From assembly GCA_916048095.2 (NCBI GenBank), contig OU696585.1, positions 6,359,460 to 6,423,459 of the forward strand: a stretch of 64,000 nucleotides of DNA, in the 5' to 3' direction. The notes beneath the pieces were generated by a model that made no database searches, was not told the DNA's origin, and worked only from the letters and a program-made list of their open reading frames with translations. Position 1 is the first letter of the stretch; each line of letters begins with the position of its first letter. Position numbers and translations under genes: made by a program. The DNA comes from Sacculina carcini. Taxonomy: Eukaryota > Arthropoda > Thecostraca > Sacculinidae. This document shows positions 1-9,186 of this stretch, in pieces.

Positions 1-357
1 CGTCCGATTTTCTATACTTTTTTCTCTATTTCTCAGCAACTAAATATCACACATCTAAATAAATAATACCATCATGCTGGCAATTTTGCTTTCTACAACA
101 CGGTATATATTTCCATTTTCCAGAGTGTATTAAAAAGTTACGGCGGTGTGAAGTCAAAATGACAAAGTCAAAAAGGCAAAATTAGCACTGAAAAAAGTTA
201 ATATTTTGGTAAATATTTTGGTCAATACTCCTCATAAACCAGAAATGGCACAGCCAAAAGAGAAGACTGAAATGACGTATAATTATAGGTATCGTTGTAT
301 TTTTCAATAGTTCATTATAGGTGCCGTTCAGACAGAGGTCTTCATGCAGTAATCAGA

Positions 358-701: not shown

Positions 702-886
702 ATCGCTTCTCGGCCTCAGGCTAAGATCAAAGTGTAGTATCTGTTCTTTTCAGCTTAATATCTGAAACGTCCCCTACATGGGGACCAGTATATTAAACTG
801 ATTTTTGCAGATTGGCGGGGTCACAGGGCTTGCTCTGTTCCTGCCGCGGGTCGACCCGGTATTGCACTACATCCGGGAACGGTCCA
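702..886 (+). ncRNA. U2: U2 snRNA gene 1 (reference copy)
   Basis: U2 snRNA is the spliceosomal RNA that pairs with the intron branch point. The sequence begins ATCGCTTCTCGGCC as in other animal U2 RNAs. The branch-point recognition sequence GTAGTA is at U2 positions 33-38. The stem II region follows, then TATATTAAA, then the Sm site ATTTTTG at 801-807, then stems III and IV, ending GGGAACGGTCCA. The length of 185 nt is close to the usual 187-190. The 3' end is placed by similarity and may be off by a few bases. Two departures from the common animal sequence are a stem I loop reduced to UCA (GCC-UCA-GGC) and a stem IV loop reading AUUGCACUAC where AUUGCAGUAC is usual. I saw no convincing 3' box downstream. 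Confidence 0.96.
801..807 (+). other. Sm-protein binding site of U2 (reference copy)
   Basis: ATTTTTG, U2 positions 100-106, single-stranded between stem II and stem III, where the Sm ring assembles. It follows TATATTAAACTG as in other U2 RNAs. The element inserts upstream of it, so the 3' fragments of split genes still carry it. Confidence 0.85.
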
Positions 887-1904
887 TTTTAACTACTATC
901 AAAACAATTCTGGCACTCAATCCAGTTAATCATTCATTTATAATCGTGTATAATCAATATAATCAAACCTAGGTAACGGGAGCGGGGATCACGCCAGTCG
1001 ATGCACGCCCTCGTCGACTCTCTACGTTGGTCCGACTGGCGGGGTCAATATTCTACCATCTACTCCTCGTAAACCAGCAATAGTAGAGCTATACAAATTA
1101 CACCACTGTGTAGAGAATTTTCTATACTACAAGATAGGCTATATTTTAAATCGAAAAAATTTCAAAATTCCAATCTACATTACAAATTTAATTTAACTCC
1201 ACGCGTCCGATTTTCTATACTTTTTTCTCTATTTCTCAGCAACTAAATATCACACATCTAAATAAATAATACCATCATGCTGGCAATTTTGCTTTCTACA
1301 ACACGGTATATATTTCCATTTTCCAGAGTGTATTAAAAAGTTACGGCGGTGTGAAGTCAAAATGACAAAGTCAAAAAGGCAAAATTAGCACTGAAAAAAG
1401 TTAATATTTTGGTAAATATTTTGGTCAATACTCCTCATAAACCAGAAATGGCACAGCCAAAAGAGAAGACTGAAATGACGTATAATTATAGGTATCGTTG
1501 TATTTTTCAATAGTTCATTATAGGTGCCGTTCAGACAGAGGTCTTCATGCAGTAATCAGAGCGCCACCTAGTGACAACTACTGGAAGCAGAACTCGACCG
1601 TCGAGACGTGGCGGCATATCGTCGTTTGATGTTAATTTGCGGTGTTCGTTTGATGTTGATTGAAGTCCCTATTGATTCATTAACTGATTCAATGATTGAT
1701 ATGATTATCAGCTAGACTTATTTTAGATGCGTGTGCAAGTGTGTAAAAAGTGTATATAGTCATGAAATGCACGAAAGTGGCCATTTGATATACATTTTTC
1801 ACGTTGAGAAGCACATGAAGTCTCAAATTTATATTACTGGGTCAATTGATCAGCTCTAGTTGACCTCATCGTTCAAATAAGTCAGATCCAGATCAAAAAT
1901 CTGT
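887..1904 (+). repeat. U2 spacer (reference full spacer; A tail, B flank)
   Basis: 1018 bp of AT-rich, non-coding spacer. In order it holds a 73-bp GC-rich island similar to the retrotransposon ORF (972-1044); a 21-bp sequence at 1061-1081 that recurs with two mismatches at 1429-1449; the tail TTTAATTTAAC; the 5-A run; the CTCF-like site (1561-1574); CGACC and GCAAG markers; and the U2 promoter. No other gene is visible. Confidence 0.9.
972..1044 (+). other. 73-bp spacer island similar to the retrotransposon ORF (reference copy)
   Basis: This GC-rich block aligns without gaps to 5460-5532 inside the element ORF, with 62 of 73 bases identical. In the element frame it reads VTGAGITPVDARPRRL followed by STLVRLAG, against VPGAGLTSVDARPRRL and STFVRLAG in the element at 4324. 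Seven of the eleven differences are synonymous and the other four are conservative or moderate changes. It begins 86 bp after the 3' end of each U2 gene in every spacer. It looks like a fragment of a related, older element fixed in the spacer. A retained function is possible but not shown. Confidence 0.8.
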
Positions 1905-2089: not shown

Positions 2090-3108
2090 TTTTAACTACT
2101 ATCAAAACAATTCTGGCACTCAATCCAGTTAATCATTCATTTATAATCGTGTATAATCAATATAATCAAACCTAGGTAACGGGAGCGGGGATCACGCCAG
2201 TCGATGCACGCCCTCGTCGACTCTCTACGTTGGTCCGACTGGCGGGGTCAATATTCTACCATCTACTCCTCGTAAACCAGCAATAGTAGAGCTATACAAA
2301 TTACACCACTGTGTAGAGAATTTTCTATACTACAAGATAGGCTATATTTTAAATCGAAAAAATTTCAAAATTCCAATCTACATTACAAATTGTATTTAAA
2401 CTCCACGCGTCCGATTTTCTATACTTTTTTCTCTATTTCTCAGCAACTAAATATCACACATCTAAATAAATAATACCATCATGCTGGCAATTTTGCTTTC
2501 TACAACACGGTATATATTTCCATTTTCCAGAGTGTATTAAAAAGTTACGGCGGTGTGAAGTCAAAATGACAAAGTCAAAAAGGCAAAATTAGCACTGAAA
2601 AAAGTTAATATTTTGGTAAATATTTTGGTCAATACTCCTCATAAACCAGAAATGGCACAGCCAAAAGAGAAGACTGAAATGACGTATAATTATAGGTATC
2701 GTTGTATTTTTCAATAGTTCATTATAGGTGCCGTTCAGACAGAGGTCTTCATGCAGTAATCAGAGCGCCACCTAGTGACAACTACTGGAAGCAGAACTCG
2801 ACCGTCGAGACGTGGCGGCATATCGTCGTTTGATGTTAATTTGCGGTGTTCGTTTGATGTTGATTGAAGTCCCTATTGATTCATTAACTGATTCAATGAT
2901 TGATATGATTATCAGCTAGACTTATTTTAGATGCGTGTGCAAGTGTGTAAAAAGTGTATATAGTCATGAAATGCACGAAAGTGGCCATTTGATATACATT
3001 TTTCACGTTGAGAAGCACATGAAGTCTCAAATTTATATTACTGGGTCAATTGATCAGCTCTAGTTGACCTCATCGTTCAAATAAGTCAGATCCAGATCAA
3101 AAATCTGT
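2090..3108 (+). repeat. U2 spacer, haplotype B
   Basis: 1019 bp. Markers are TTGTATTT tail, 5 A, CGACC and GCAAG, so it is pure B. Element-like island at 2175-2247 and CTCF-like site at 2765-2778. Confidence 0.9.
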
Positions 3109-3293: not shown

Positions 3294-4312
3294 TTTTAAC
3301 TACTATCAAAACAATTCTGGCACTCAATCCAGTTAATCATTCATTTATAATCGTGTATAATCAATATAATCAAACCTAGGTAACGGGAGCGGGGATCACG
3401 CCAGTCGATGCACGCCCTCGTCGACTCTCTACGTTGGTCCGACTGGCGGGGTCAATATTCTACCATCTACTCCTCGTAAACCAGCAATAGTAGAGCTATA
3501 CAAATTACACCACTGTGTAGAGAATTTTCTATACTACAAGATAGGCTATATTTTAAATCGAAAAAATTTCAAAATTCCAATCTACATTACAAATTGTATT
3601 TAAACTCCACGCGTCCGATTTTCTATACTTTTTTCTCTATTTCTCAGCAACTAAATATCACACATCTAAATAAATAATACCATCATGCTGGCAATTTTGC
3701 TTTCTACAACACGGTATATATTTCCATTTTCCAGAGTGTATTAAAAAGTTACGGCGGTGTGAAGTCAAAATGACAAAGTCAAAAAGGCAAAATTAGCACT
3801 GAAAAAAGTTAATATTTTGGTAAATATTTTGGTCAATACTCCTCATAAACCAGAAATGGCACAGCCAAAAGAGAAGACTGAAATGACGTATAATTATAGG
3901 TATCGTTGTATTTTTCAATAGTTCATTATAGGTGCCGTTCAGACAGAGGTCTTCATGCAGTAATCAGAGCGCCACCTAGTGACAACTACTGGAAGCAGAA
4001 CTCGACCGTCGAGACGTGGCGGCATATCGTCGTTTGATGTTAATTTGCGGTGTTCGTTTGATGTTGATTGAAGTCCCTATTGATTCATTAACTGATTCAA
4101 TGATTGATATGATTATCAGCTAGACTTATTTTAGATGCGTGTGCAAGTGTGTAAAAAGTGTATATAGTCATGAAATGCACGAAAGTGGCCATTTGATATA
4201 CATTTTTCACGTTGAGAAGCACATGAAGTCTCAAATTTATATTACTGGGTCAATTGATCAGCTCTAGTTGACCTCATCGTTCAAATAAGTCAGATCCAGA
4301 TCAAAAATCTGT
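3294..4312 (+). repeat. U2 spacer, haplotype B
   Basis: 1019 bp, pure B markers. It supplies the U2 promoter that lies upstream of the element at 4324. Confidence 0.9.
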
Positions 4313-4623: not shown

Positions 4624-7600
4624 ATGTCGGCCAACACGCCACTTGTGGCACATCAATCCACAACCCTGGACGCCGACGGCGATGTTTTGCGCGTCTTCCT
4701 GCCGCTGCCGGACGTGACAGCCTGCCCATACGAAGACTGCGGCGCCACGTACGCCATCACCCGACGTGGTGGCTACACGCAGGTACGTGCCAGCATCCTG
4801 CGCCATCTGGAGGCGGCCCACGCCGATGTGCGCACATCAGTGTACATGTGCAGGCGGTGCCGACAACCGATGGGCGTGCGACCGTCGACCCATCGGTGTC
4901 GCCAGCAAACACCCCCGGCAGAGGCGCACACAGCGGTGCTGGCGCCCAGTTTTACCTGCCGGCACTGTCACCAGCGCTTCACAAATTCTCGAGCGCTGGT
5001 CAACCACACAAACGTGTGCCGGCGCCAGCAGTCAACAGGAGCAAACCGGCGACAGCGACCGTCGGATCCACAGCAGCAACAGAGGAGGCGGCCAACACAC
5101 CAGCGGCAGACCAATGGCGAGAGACACACACCACCCTCACACTCACAATCACCACAATCAGAAACACCACCTCCGAGTCCACCAACACCACCACCTCACG
5201 TAATGTCCCCACGCCCACCACTCCTTCCCACACCACCACTCCTTCGCACACCACCGCTTCTTCCCACACCACTGCTTCTTCCCACTCTAGCACTCCCACT
5301 ATCACCTCTTCGTTCAAATCAAATCTCTTTTTCATACACACCATCTCCGCTCACACCCCGCATTCCAACCTTCACATCACCTACCACGCCAACACCCACT
5401 CACACATACACCGTATCTCCTCCCACATCCCCACCTACCACCTACACTACTCTCGCCATGGTACCGGGGGCGGGGCTCACGTCAGTCGACGCGCGACCTC
5501 GTCGACTATCAACGTTTGTACGACTGGCGGGGGGTGTGCGGGAGCGGCCAACTGCAAGCGACACTGCCACGAGACCAGCACCGTCCGTCTCGCCGCCGCG
5601 CGGTCGCTGGACAGCAGCCGACCCCGCTGCACCGCCAGCGTCACCGCGGTCATACCTGGCGGCACTCATCGGGTCAATCTCCCCCTCGCCCCCGCCGCGC
5701 CCGCCGCGACTGCCGTCTTCATCTCCACCATCATCATCACCTTCGTCATCATCGTCATCCTCTTCGCCATCATCACCACGACCATCATCGTCGCAATCGT
5801 CCTCGTCATCGTCGTCATCTTCTTCCTCACCAGCATTACATATACGATCTCAACATTCTCCATCAACACCACCAGCACGTACACATCACCACACGTCGCC
5901 GGCAAACAATGTCGGCAACGCTCCGCGTGCTTCCGGCGTGCCATCGTCGAGACCGGCGCGCCGGCAGAAACGACAACCACAACAGGTGAGCACTGCCAGG
6001 GGGAGTCAGTCGCAGCAGCGAGCGTCGGTGCCGCCCACACACAGACCACACAACAACCACCACACAAGAAACACCACAAACAGACCACACAACAACCACC
6101 ACACAAGAAGCACCACAAACATGCACACGAACACACTCCCTCGCACGTCCACGCCCTCATCACACTCAACACTGACACCCAACAACACCCGACAACACAC
6201 ATTCATTACACCCAACAGGTATGCGCTGCTGTCTCAATCTGATGACAACAGTGCATCACCATCAGTCTCACAACAAAACCACACAAGCCAAATCACTTCA
6301 CCAGGGCGGCGCCGGGTTGTTGGAGAGCAGTCAAATGGACCCACACACCAACACCGAAACAATCACACATCACTACAGAACACGCTCACCCAGTTCCACG
6401 AACCACTCACACAAATAAACTGTAACACACCATTCTGCATACTTGACATACTCATTAACACACTCACACAGCAAGCACGGGACCTCAGCGGCCTCAACAC
6501 ACGACACCAAAACCACCCAAGACAAAACACGAACACCCACACAAACAATCATACACACACGCACACCGCACAATTCAGCCACCACACAGAACACCACGAC
6601 CACAGACAGATGTGGCGCAGCCCACCATATGATCCGGTAGTTGCAGCGAAAATTCAACGCGACTACCGGACCGGCAAGGCTGTCGTTTACAGACAGCTGG
6701 TGGGTGAGACAACACCACCATGTGACATTGAGCCCTTGGTGGTAGGCAGGCATTTCTGTGGCGAGACTGCCTCGTCGCCGAGATGGTCTGACCGCCCAAC
6801 GTCCGTGCCAGACATTACACCTACACCAGCAACCACACTATCACAACCCATCACAACCGCTGAGATCCAGCGCAGAATAAACAACACACAAAACACAACA
6901 CCGGGTCCAGATGGGTTGAGGTATTCAGACTGGAAACGCCTCGATCCTGACTGCTCAATCCTCACAGCCATGTTCAATGCATGCCGACTGACTGGGAGGA
7001 CTCCCACCGCGTGGAAGTCTTCTCGAACCATCCTTCTACACAAGGGTGGTGACCCCCAAGAGCTGAAGAGCTGGCGACCGATCGCTCTTGGCAACACAAT
7101 CGCCAAGCTCTACGCGGGTATTTGGGCCGATCGCCTCTCACACTGGGCTGAAACACACAACATCCTCACACACTCACAAAAAGGTTTCCGTCCCTTCGAT
7201 GGCGTGCTGGAACACAACTTTGTGGTACAGTCTGCCATCGCCAGGGCTCGGAAATCCAACACATCGACACACATCACGTTTATTGACATAAAAAACGCAT
7301 TCGGCTCTGTATCACACGCACTCCTGTGGGAGACACTCAGCTTGCTGGGTGTCCCCACAGACACACTTTCAATCATCACAGACATATACACCAACAGCAC
7401 CACAACATTCACCACACAACGAGGTGTATCGGCTCCCATCCCACAAATTGGAGGTGTCAGACAGGGATGTCCGCTCAGTGGTATTCTCTTTGCCTTCGCA
7501 ATGGAGCCACTGCTGCGGAGCTTGACCGAGGCAGGCGTTGAACATCTCGCCTTTGCTGATGACGTCGCCCTCATCTGTCACAGCGAGTCTCAGCTCTCTC

Positions 7601-9186
7601 TGGCACTGTCTCAGGTGCACGATATCTGCGCGTGGGCTGGTCTCTCCATCAATGCCAGCAAATGCGCAGTATTGTCACCTGTCGCGCCTCTCAGCACTCC
7701 AGCTGTCCTCAATGGCGTGCCTCTGCCCTCACTCGAGGCGGAGGGGCAGTACAGGTACCTGGGGAGACCGACTGGCAGGTCTTTCCTGCACGCCGACATG
7801 GATCAGCTCATGTCCGATGTTCGCCGCAAATCTAATCTTATTCTGCATTCTGCTCTTGCCCCCTGGCAAAAACTTGACTCCCTTCGCTCTTTTATCACTC
7901 CTATTCTCACTCACCCTCTTCGTCTAGGCCTCCTCACTAAAACAAGCCTTAGCCGACTACAACGAGAAATCGTGTGGAAGGTGAAGGGCTTGCTCAATCT
8001 ACCGTCTCGCTCTACTCTTCACTATCTTTTCTCTCCTACTTCTTGTGGCGGCATTGGGCTGAGTGATCTGTGTCAAGAGGCGGACATCTTGCTTGTTTCG
8101 TCATCGCTGCAGCTATTGCACTGCAAAGACGCTCGTGTAGCGACCCTGGCACTCGATCAGTTGCGGCGTGTCGTTGCCGGCAGGGTGCAGTCGGAGCCCA
8201 CCACACAGCAGCTGGTGGACTACCTCAACGGGTGCCGAATGCGTCAAGGAGGCGGCTACGCCACGCGCACGTCGCGCACGCGAGTCGCCTTCAGGACCAT
8301 TATGGCCAGATCGGCTCTCCGTTGGGGACCTACTGCGGACGGTGTACCCGCACTGTTCCTCAACGGCAAGGAGGTGTCTCCGCGCAAGTCATCTGCGATC
8401 ATCCGAGATGAAGTGCGCAAATGGCGGCAGGCGAAGCTGGTTGGGCTGCCGCACCAGGGCAAAGTGATGTCCAGTGTGGCGGAGCAGCCAGTTAGCTCGC
8501 ACTACACCTACAACGGTAGTTTCACGCGGTTTGCCGAGTGGCGCTTTGTGCACCGGGCCCGTCTGGGTCTAGTGCCACTCAATGGCTACTCCCGTGGAGC
8601 GCAGGCAGTCAATACCAGCTGCCGCCGTTGTGGGTACGCCAATGAGACCCTCCCGCACGTGCTCACACACTGTCGTGTGCACAGCGCCGCACAGCAACAC
8701 AGGCACAATGCTATTCTGGCACGCCTGGTGCGCGCGCTGCCGGCTGCTGATCGGACAGGTGGAAACACTCGCGTCAACCAACGCGTTCCTGGCAGCACGT
8801 CGACACTACGGCCTGACCTCATCGTCACTCGAGGCAACCAGGTCGTAATTGTCGACGTCACAGTGGCGTTTGAGAACGGCTGTCAGGCATTCCAGTCAGC
8901 AGCTGATGAAAAGGTCGCCAAATACGCGGAGTTGGCGGCCGAAATACGGTCCCGGGGCAAGCAGGTGGATCTGCTAGCCTTTGTTGTGGGCTCGCTCGGC
9001 ACCTGGTGGAAAGGTAACGAGCGTGTCCTGGGCCGCCTGCACATCAGTCGTCGCTACAGCCGACTCATGCGACGGCTGATGGTGTCGGAGACGCTGCGGT
9101 GGTCACGTGACGTGTATGTCGAACATGTCACGGGCCATCGGCAGTACGCGGAGCCCGCTCCCAGAGCGGACACATATCTTCTCTAA
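4624..9186 (+). CDS. Retrotransposon protein: zinc fingers, reverse transcriptase, CCHC, restriction-like endonuclease (1520 aa)
   Basis: The single protein would bind and nick the U2 gene and copy element RNA into the nick. The start is the first ATG after an in-frame stop at 4573; an upstream GTG at 4585 would add 13 residues but is unlikely in a eukaryote. Domains: three zinc fingers, C34/C39/H61/H66, C76/C79/H90/C92 and C112/C115/H128/C132, presumably for target DNA. Then about 450 residues of low-complexity Pro/Ser/Thr/His linker with a serine run near 366-403. Then RT with TPGPDG (759-764), motif A FIDIKNAFGSV with catalytic D888, motif B GVRQGCPLSG, and FADD (977-980). Then CCHC C1333/C1336/H1345/C1350. 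Then endonuclease RPD...D with D1398 and D1411, plus K1430/K1433/Y1434. Motif A has AFGSV where AFDSV is common. No RNase H or protease domain is visible. All catalytic residues are present, so it may be active. Confidence 0.93.
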   Translation: MSANTPLVAHQSTTLDADGDVLRVFLPLPDVTACPYEDCGATYAITRRGGYTQVRASILRHLEAAHADVRTSVYMCRRCRQPMGVRPSTHRCRQQTPPAEAHTAVLAPSFTCRHCHQRFTNSRALVNHTNVCRRQQSTGANRRQRPSDPQQQQRRRPTHQRQTNGERHTPPSHSQSPQSETPPPSPPTPPPHVMSPRPPLLPTPPLLRTPPLLPTPLLLPTLALPLSPLRSNQISFSYTPSPLTPRIPTFTSPTTPTPTHTYTVSPPTSPPTTYTTLAMVPGAGLTSVDARPRRLSTFVRLAGGVRERPTASDTATRPAPSVSPPRGRWTAADPAAPPASPRSYLAALIGSISPSPPPRPPRLPSSSPPSSSPSSSSSSSSPSSPRPSSSQSSSSSSSSSSSPALHIRSQHSPSTPPARTHHHTSPANNVGNAPRASGVPSSRPARRQKRQPQQVSTARGSQSQQRASVPPTHRPHNNHHTRNTTNRPHNNHHTRSTTNMHTNTLPRTSTPSSHSTLTPNNTRQHTFITPNRYALLSQSDDNSASPSVSQQNHTSQITSPGRRRVVGEQSNGPTHQHRNNHTSLQNTLTQFHEPLTQINCNTPFCILDILINTLTQQARDLSGLNTRHQNHPRQNTNTHTNNHTHTHTAQFSHHTEHHDHRQMWRSPPYDPVVAAKIQRDYRTGKAVVYRQLVGETTPPCDIEPLVVGRHFCGETASSPRWSDRPTSVPDITPTPATTLSQPITTAEIQRRINNTQNTTPGPDGLRYSDWKRLDPDCSILTAMFNACRLTGRTPTAWKSSRTILLHKGGDPQELKSWRPIALGNTIAKLYAGIWADRLSHWAETHNILTHSQKGFRPFDGVLEHNFVVQSAIARARKSNTSTHITFIDIKNAFGSVSHALLWETLSLLGVPTDTLSIITDIYTNSTTTFTTQRGVSAPIPQIGGVRQGCPLSGILFAFAMEPLLRSLTEAGVEHLAFADDVALICHSESQLSLALSQVHDICAWAGLSINASKCAVLSPVAPLSTPAVLNGVPLPSLEAEGQYRYLGRPTGRSFLHADMDQLMSDVRRKSNLILHSALAPWQKLDSLRSFITPILTHPLRLGLLTKTSLSRLQREIVWKVKGLLNLPSRSTLHYLFSPTSCGGIGLSDLCQEADILLVSSSLQLLHCKDARVATLALDQLRRVVAGRVQSEPTTQQLVDYLNGCRMRQGGGYATRTSRTRVAFRTIMARSALRWGPTADGVPALFLNGKEVSPRKSSAIIRDEVRKWRQAKLVGLPHQGKVMSSVAEQPVSSHYTYNGSFTRFAEWRFVHRARLGLVPLNGYSRGAQAVNTSCRRCGYANETLPHVLTHCRVHSAAQQHRHNAILARLVRALPAADRTGGNTRVNQRVPGSTSTLRPDLIVTRGNQVVIVDVTVAFENGCQAFQSAADEKVAKYAELAAEIRSRGKQVDLLAFVVGSLGTWWKGNERVLGRLHISRRYSRLMRRLMVSETLRWSRDVYVEHVTGHRQYAEPAPRADTYLL

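Follow-up and report, generated by a model that had tools for sequence, protein, structure and literature searches.

A probable fossil of a Utopia-like retrotransposon ORF in the U2 snRNA gene spacers of Sacculina carcini

U2 repeats, a resident retrotransposon, and a shared block

The window, the whole 64,000-nucleotide stretch analyzed here (C20:6359460-6423459), comes from a 264-Mb genome in 43 contigs. It holds 29 matches to U2 snRNA (Rfam RF00004); intact neighboring U2 repeats are spaced by about 1.2 kb, and some are split by a retrotransposon. On contig C20 as a whole, U2 and element sequence spans from about 6.12 to 6.93 Mb, and we compared array repeats from the window, from 90 kb at the left end, and from 110 kb that include the right end. 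All window features described below lie on the plus strand.

One repeat illustrates the arrangement: a U2 gene (702..892; 165.5 bits), a 3' flank (893..971), a block of 73 bp (972..1044), and part of an AT-rich dispersed repeat (1045..1204), the last assigned by way of a longer spacer form, which shows colinearity with one copy of the repeat elsewhere than in the array. The segment 892-971 falls into a single length class in 58 of the 58 repeats compared. With the Rfam end of U2 at 892 and the block starting at 972, gene and block are 79 bases apart, which replaces the 86 bp given in a preliminary description. A second, related AT-rich stretch can be seen by eye near window positions 140-260.

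The retrotransposon carries an ORF of 1520 aa (4624..9183) with a reverse transcriptase domain at aa 809-1047 (RVT_1, Pfam PF00078, E 3e-35). Among PDB entries, R2 proteins match best (down to E 1e-57): an R2-like RT, which does not separate Utopia from R2. Finger-like Cys/His patterns, candidates for N-terminal zinc fingers, are visible by eye in the translation, with no Pfam zinc-finger match, and so is a PD-D-type motif, which may belong to a C-terminal restriction-like endonuclease and which likewise has no Pfam match. The elements are preceded by U2 nt 1-37 and followed by nt 37/38-191, the insertion site of Utopia. By insertion site and RT, the element appears to be Utopia-like.

Resemblance to the Utopia families of Kojima and Jurka (2015; PMC4640811, here and below as far as its accessible text goes) extends to several features: one ORF that bears the RT, insertion in U2 genes, resumption of the U2 sequence behind the element near nt 37-39, and the lack of a clear target duplication (U2 nt 1-37, then 37/38 on), which that paper describes for arthropod families. 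Several lineages per genome, and elements and U2 repeats in arrays, are further likenesses. That paper gives nt 39 for the Utopia 3' flank, 1-2 nt from the site seen here, perhaps a matter of numbering. The 5' junctions of the elements vary (window 4324; C20:6382472, 6389171, and 6400736): the first window element starts after about 11 nt of U2, and in 18 other elements U2 continues to nt 37 and the leader is longer by about 100 bp.

The spacer block aligns without gaps to 5460..5532, codons 280-303 of the ORF, at 62 of 73 positions, as first described. When spacer and element are compared by blastn, the block scores E = 8e-19; no further element piece in the C20 spacer does better than E = 0.19. 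The homology is real and far above chance. A scan of the window for the block, with up to 25 mismatches, returned 33 places: 29 spacer copies, of which 28 are identical and one (36546) has 1 mismatch, and four ORF copies (5460, 24160, 30859, and 42424) with 11 mismatches each. After 972 and 2175..2247, the spacer copies start at 3379, 9943, 11146, 12349, 13552, 14756, 15959, 17749, 19537, 20740, 21943, 28642, 35341, 36546, 37751, 39001, 40207, 46906, 48111, 49316, 50521, 53591, 56661, 59731, 60936, 62141, and 63346. The ORF frame is open across the block, as had been claimed, with a stop in the spacer just before it. In base composition the block stands apart from its surroundings: its GC content is 0.685, against 0.34 in the rest of the spacer, and the ORF itself has 0.515 in the 200 bp before the homologous block and 0.685 in the 200 bp after it.

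Length forms of the block and its decay

The view that every U2 spacer carries the block holds for the window (29/29) and gives way across the whole array to a set of length forms. Genome-wide, the exact pattern of the right junction of the spacer block occurs at 314 places (313 forward, 1 reverse), the exact 73-bp form at 214, and an exact 26-bp stub at 25 (24 forward, 1 reverse); the remaining 75 or so right junctions are further variants, which were read in part. Block lengths in the repeats measured were 178 bp (n=2), 76 bp (n=2), 74 bp (n=6), 73 bp (n=30), 67 bp (n=3), and 26 bp (n=16), a tally that leaves out one repeat whose block is split by an insertion. A complete U2 gene at 6910391 is among the repeats with the 26-bp stub.

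Local rearrangements of the array were also seen. At C20:6163843-6168466, an insertion of about 4.6 kb breaks one spacer directly before the block; near it, the repeat period is about 4.74 kb, and the left half of the block is altered in three copies. At C20:6187220, on the minus strand, one 26-bp stub is reversed inside the array, a sign of local inversion.

The 178-bp form lies at three places at the left end of the array (6126000, 6139145, and 6152288), of which two were measured. These three spacers recur every 13.14 kb, a higher-order repeat of the left end of the C20 array. In the long form, 130 bp align to Utopia ORFs and are followed by AT-rich sequence; in the ORF frame the relic reads VPGAGITPVDSRPRRLSTLVRLAGGVRERPTANDAAAMTENVTQA and is open through all 45 codons translated. 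The AT-rich sequence is found again outside the array, at C20:6968996-6969300, and belongs to a dispersed repeat with 2876 candidates, the 40 scored ones of which lie on 21 contigs, so that it is present on at least 21. Compared with the 178-bp form, the 73-bp form has 105 bp fewer, and 1044/1045 is the deletion joint. The long form keeps its colinearity with the dispersed repeat, which is cut in the 73-bp form; the 73-bp block is therefore a deletion derivative, and the long form is the older of the two. A match of the right end of the block (GACTGGCGGGGTCA) to U2 was considered and rejected: as the long form makes plain, these last bases were joined on through a later deletion.

What has happened to the block since then? 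The spacer forms differ from each other by +1, +3, -6, and -47 bp, and the 73-bp form differs from the long form by 1 synonymous and 3 non-synonymous changes. The preliminary description held that both copies evolved as coding sequence after they split; this applies to the time before capture, in view of these non-synonymous changes (1:3) and indels. To place the block among its neighbors, we compared four segments in 58 repeats. The numbers of alleles and of lengths are 10 and 6 in the block, 4 and 1 in the 80 bp before it, 14 and 2 in the 160 bp after it, and 5 and 2 in U2 nt 41-191. The block is therefore the most length-variable of the four segments, and not the one with most alleles; because the segment after the block has more (14 versus 10), substitutions alone do not single out the block. 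Conservation of the block above its flanks, which would be expected of a functional spacer element, was not seen in these repeats: it has 6 length classes, against 1 and 2. Such length decay is what a neutral fossil would do. Among the roles first proposed for the block, that of a mere fossil is the one favored by its graded shortened forms and its variability in length.

Two functional roles had also been proposed. A homology anchor for recombination between spacer and element would draw on the co-oriented stretch of 73 bp, 85% identical, that every window repeat offers. The 83 block copies classified comprise 57 that lead from spacer to spacer, 21 from ORF to ORF, 2 long relics, and 3 with an altered left side that lead to spacer; chimeras with a full ORF number 0 of 83, and the longest exact run shared by block and ORF is 12 bases. 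We regard an anchor as very improbable. Hardly better are the prospects of the block as a source of small RNAs that silence the element, for which its resemblance to the ORF is the sole point in favor. The block lies in the same sense as the ORF, every 21-mer has at least 2 and every 28-mer at least 4 mismatches to the window ORF, and the block is cut to 26 bp at 25 places; orientation and match length (the same 12-base run) leave the proposal unsupported.

Source lineage and direction of capture

The long form gives access to the element lineage from which the relic came. A search with it (40 of 566 candidates scored) ranked four dispersed copies above the array elements and below the long forms themselves: L042 and L044 on C22, L043 on C11, and L045 on C6. 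These copies match the long form for 22 bases further than the array elements do, and a search with one of them (40 of 359 candidates scored) ranked the same four first. In alignment, an 18-bp in-frame segment of six codons is common to the long relic and to L042-L045; it is absent from the array elements in the alignment, where the corresponding point in the window ORF is 5567..5568, and from L048, a further copy on C11. Within the segment, the relic is identical to each of L042-L045 at 13 of 18 positions. In the ORF frame, L045 reads VPGAGFTPVDARPRRLSTFIRLAGSVRERPTANDTAAMTENTTRPA.

Over the 73-bp block, L042 and L043 are the best matches among the candidates scored (67/73), followed by L048 and one right-end array element (65/73), by L044, L045, and another right-end array element (64/73), and by the other array elements used (62-63/73; window ORF 62). 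Over the 112 sites common to all, the relic has 9 differences to L042 and L043 each, 13 to L044 and L045 each, 11 to L048, and 11-14 to five array elements, so that the distances of segment-bearing copies (9-13) overlap those of L048 and the array elements (11-14). IQ-TREE unites the five array elements with L048 in a clade (support 95/93) to the exclusion of the relic and L042-L045. FastTree places the relic, which is short and on a long branch (0.12), among L042-L045 with local supports of 0.816 and 0.633, where IQ-TREE has no supported forks.

Since the 18-bp segment and the clade of 95/93 both leave the relic outside, the present array elements were not its source: the relic falls outside their clade, in agreement with the original claim that it was not copied from the present element. 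An outcome that had been named as counting against a sister element, namely that no element in the genome is closer to the block, is not what we find, with 67/73 for L042 and L043 against 62/73 for the window ORF. The more specific claim, capture from a diverged sister element, stands in that the source was not the present element; beyond this, L044 and L045 (64/73) are no better than right-end array elements or L048, and the grouping with L042-L045 has FastTree values of just 0.63-0.82 for a short relic. The source may be a sister lineage, or it may be an ancestor of the array elements before these lost the 18-bp segment, which fits too.

The preliminary description had drawn instead on synonymous bias. 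Its count is correct: 8 of the 11 differences between block and window ORF are at third positions and 7 are synonymous (P = 0.009 for at least 8/11 third positions and P = 0.039 for at least 7/11 synonymous, one-sided and uncorrected). Over the 130 bp of the long relic, the ratio of synonymous to non-synonymous differences is 8:6 against the window ORF, 7:7 against L042 and L043, 9:9 against L044, and 10:8 against L045; among themselves, the four dispersed copies give 4:6, 4:7, 2:4, 3:7, 6:6, and 6:3. The ORF linker is weakly constrained, so synonymous bias says little here and, taken alone, is weak evidence. Sorted by eye, the eleven differences comprise two spacer changes later than the capture (P to T, F to L), two changes that occurred in part of the recent array elements (one P to S, the other synonymous), and seven between lineages, six of these synonymous. 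This sorting fits an element history before capture and the absence of constraint after it.

Synonymous bias would also be expected if the element had taken the block from the U2 spacer. We consider this reverse transfer highly unlikely. In the dispersed copies, too, the segment is embedded in ORF sequence (though in L043 unrelated sequence takes over a short way past it), the elements read have the ORF copy, and the GC content of the relic is ORF-like. The block is absent after U2 from the stretches read at two C11 loci and from the stretch read at one C2 locus, where the U2 gene has intact length and is 94.8% identical and the upstream spacer is still about 71% alike. A direction from ORF to spacer is strongly suggested.

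Origin of the relic and comparison with known systems

Taken together, the block is very probably a decaying fossil: an internal piece of a Utopia ORF, 130 bp long or more, that was linked to the U2 3' flank and spread through the C20 array. The fragment would derive from the linker region of the ORF, upstream of the RT, in a lineage that had the 18-bp in-frame segment. It would have been joined to the U2 3' flank about 80 bp past the gene, next to the AT-rich dispersed repeat. Unequal exchange or gene conversion among the repeats would then have carried the relic-bearing spacer through the C20 U2 array, while decay would have led from the 178-bp form to the 73-, 74-, 76-, and 67-bp forms and on to the 26-bp stub.

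Neither end of the relic is an element end, so the mode of joining is not directly visible. Among the junctions in three stretches read, 18 elements start about 100 bp after U2 nt 37, 9 cases run from U2 nt 34-39 into element interior (5'-truncated), 3 run straight from the spacer end into element interior, and 1 runs from it into an element start; one further row is left unclassed. Most likely, the relic began when a Utopia element inserted in 5'-truncated form, or when a deletion reached from the spacer into an adjacent element, and the remainder was lost later. A truncated insertion followed by deletion back into the preceding spacer would leave U2, about 80 bp, and then internal ORF; loss of the rest would leave the relic.

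The same fossil could have entered by another route, as filler DNA in the repair of a break or together with the AT-rich dispersed repeat. This is a possibility of some weight, if a less probable one, and filler DNA at a break is a serious alternative. Only an internal piece of the ORF is present, and the AT-rich repeat directly follows the relic in the long form; both are as these routes would have it. The single repeat copy read outside the array, on the other hand, has no such piece upstream, and contig C11 holds a different, longer fragment at a similar place, which is better suited to resident elements as the source.

That fragment follows a second U2 type. From 96-99 bases after the U2 3' half, C11 repeats carry a different part of the Utopia ORF (ORF nt 1760-2337) in two loci read, L051:1238-1597 (about 5544440) and L052:1050-1514 (about 5396450); a third C11 locus with the same spacer type is known from its search match alone. 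The fragment consists of ORF nt 1760-1901 (77%) and 2010-2337 (91% in L052; to 2224, 83%, in L051). With a different ORF fragment after U2 on C11, apparently an independent case, capture behind U2 probably happened at least twice. A stronger reading, in which U2 3' flanks are a recurrent capture site about 80-100 bp after U2, with different internal fragments in the C20 and C11 U2 lineages, strikes us as speculative and rather unlikely. If it were true, failed or 5'-truncated insertions of Utopia would tend to produce such captures repeatedly, through resection that runs back into the spacer before them and halts at a barrier near the U2 3' end.

Transposon fragments become fixed in the spacers of tandem arrays through concerted evolution, and the present case resembles this general phenomenon in that a chance fragment has spread through repeats with the array. 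It differs in that the fragment is from the element family that targets the array, and in the graded series of shortened forms in one assembly. Utopia as described in PMC4640811 is unlike the present case in one respect: the text accessible to us mentions no ORF fragment that is fixed in U2 spacers, and the word "spacer" occurs 0 times in the main text. The same paper describes strong divergence of U2 intergenic sequences and does not exclude recombination. In a toadfish, spacer regions, except one 5S spacer, are reported to have given no significant database matches, in the part of the study available (PMC3544641). Among the titles and abstract openings listed in literature searches, none had retrotransposon ORF fragments in U2 spacers as a topic.

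As a fossil, the block comes from a known family and sits in an unusual place; its surviving shortened forms make it informative. The U2 spacer becomes a record of a Utopia lineage distinct from the present elements of the array, with the shortened forms side by side in one array. It also suggests that a retrotransposon that targets a gene can deposit a piece of itself in the spacer of that target, and that such a piece can spread to hundreds of repeats. What is known of how Utopia or U2 work is unchanged.

A last observation concerns Utopia copies outside the array. The 3' end of the C6 copy was sought in a stretch that held no element sequence, and the 3' end of one C22 copy is lost in a GT repeat. 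At the 5' side, three dispersed copies (L042:241-277 and L044 on C22; L045 on C6, diverged and judged by eye) begin with U2 nt 1 or 2 to 37 and have unrelated flanks; the other C22 copy (L054) is then followed by about 22 nt of U2. Copies that start at U2 nt 1 or 2 may reflect truncated U2 targets or RNA from a U2 promoter, and L054 is explained equally by truncated targets.
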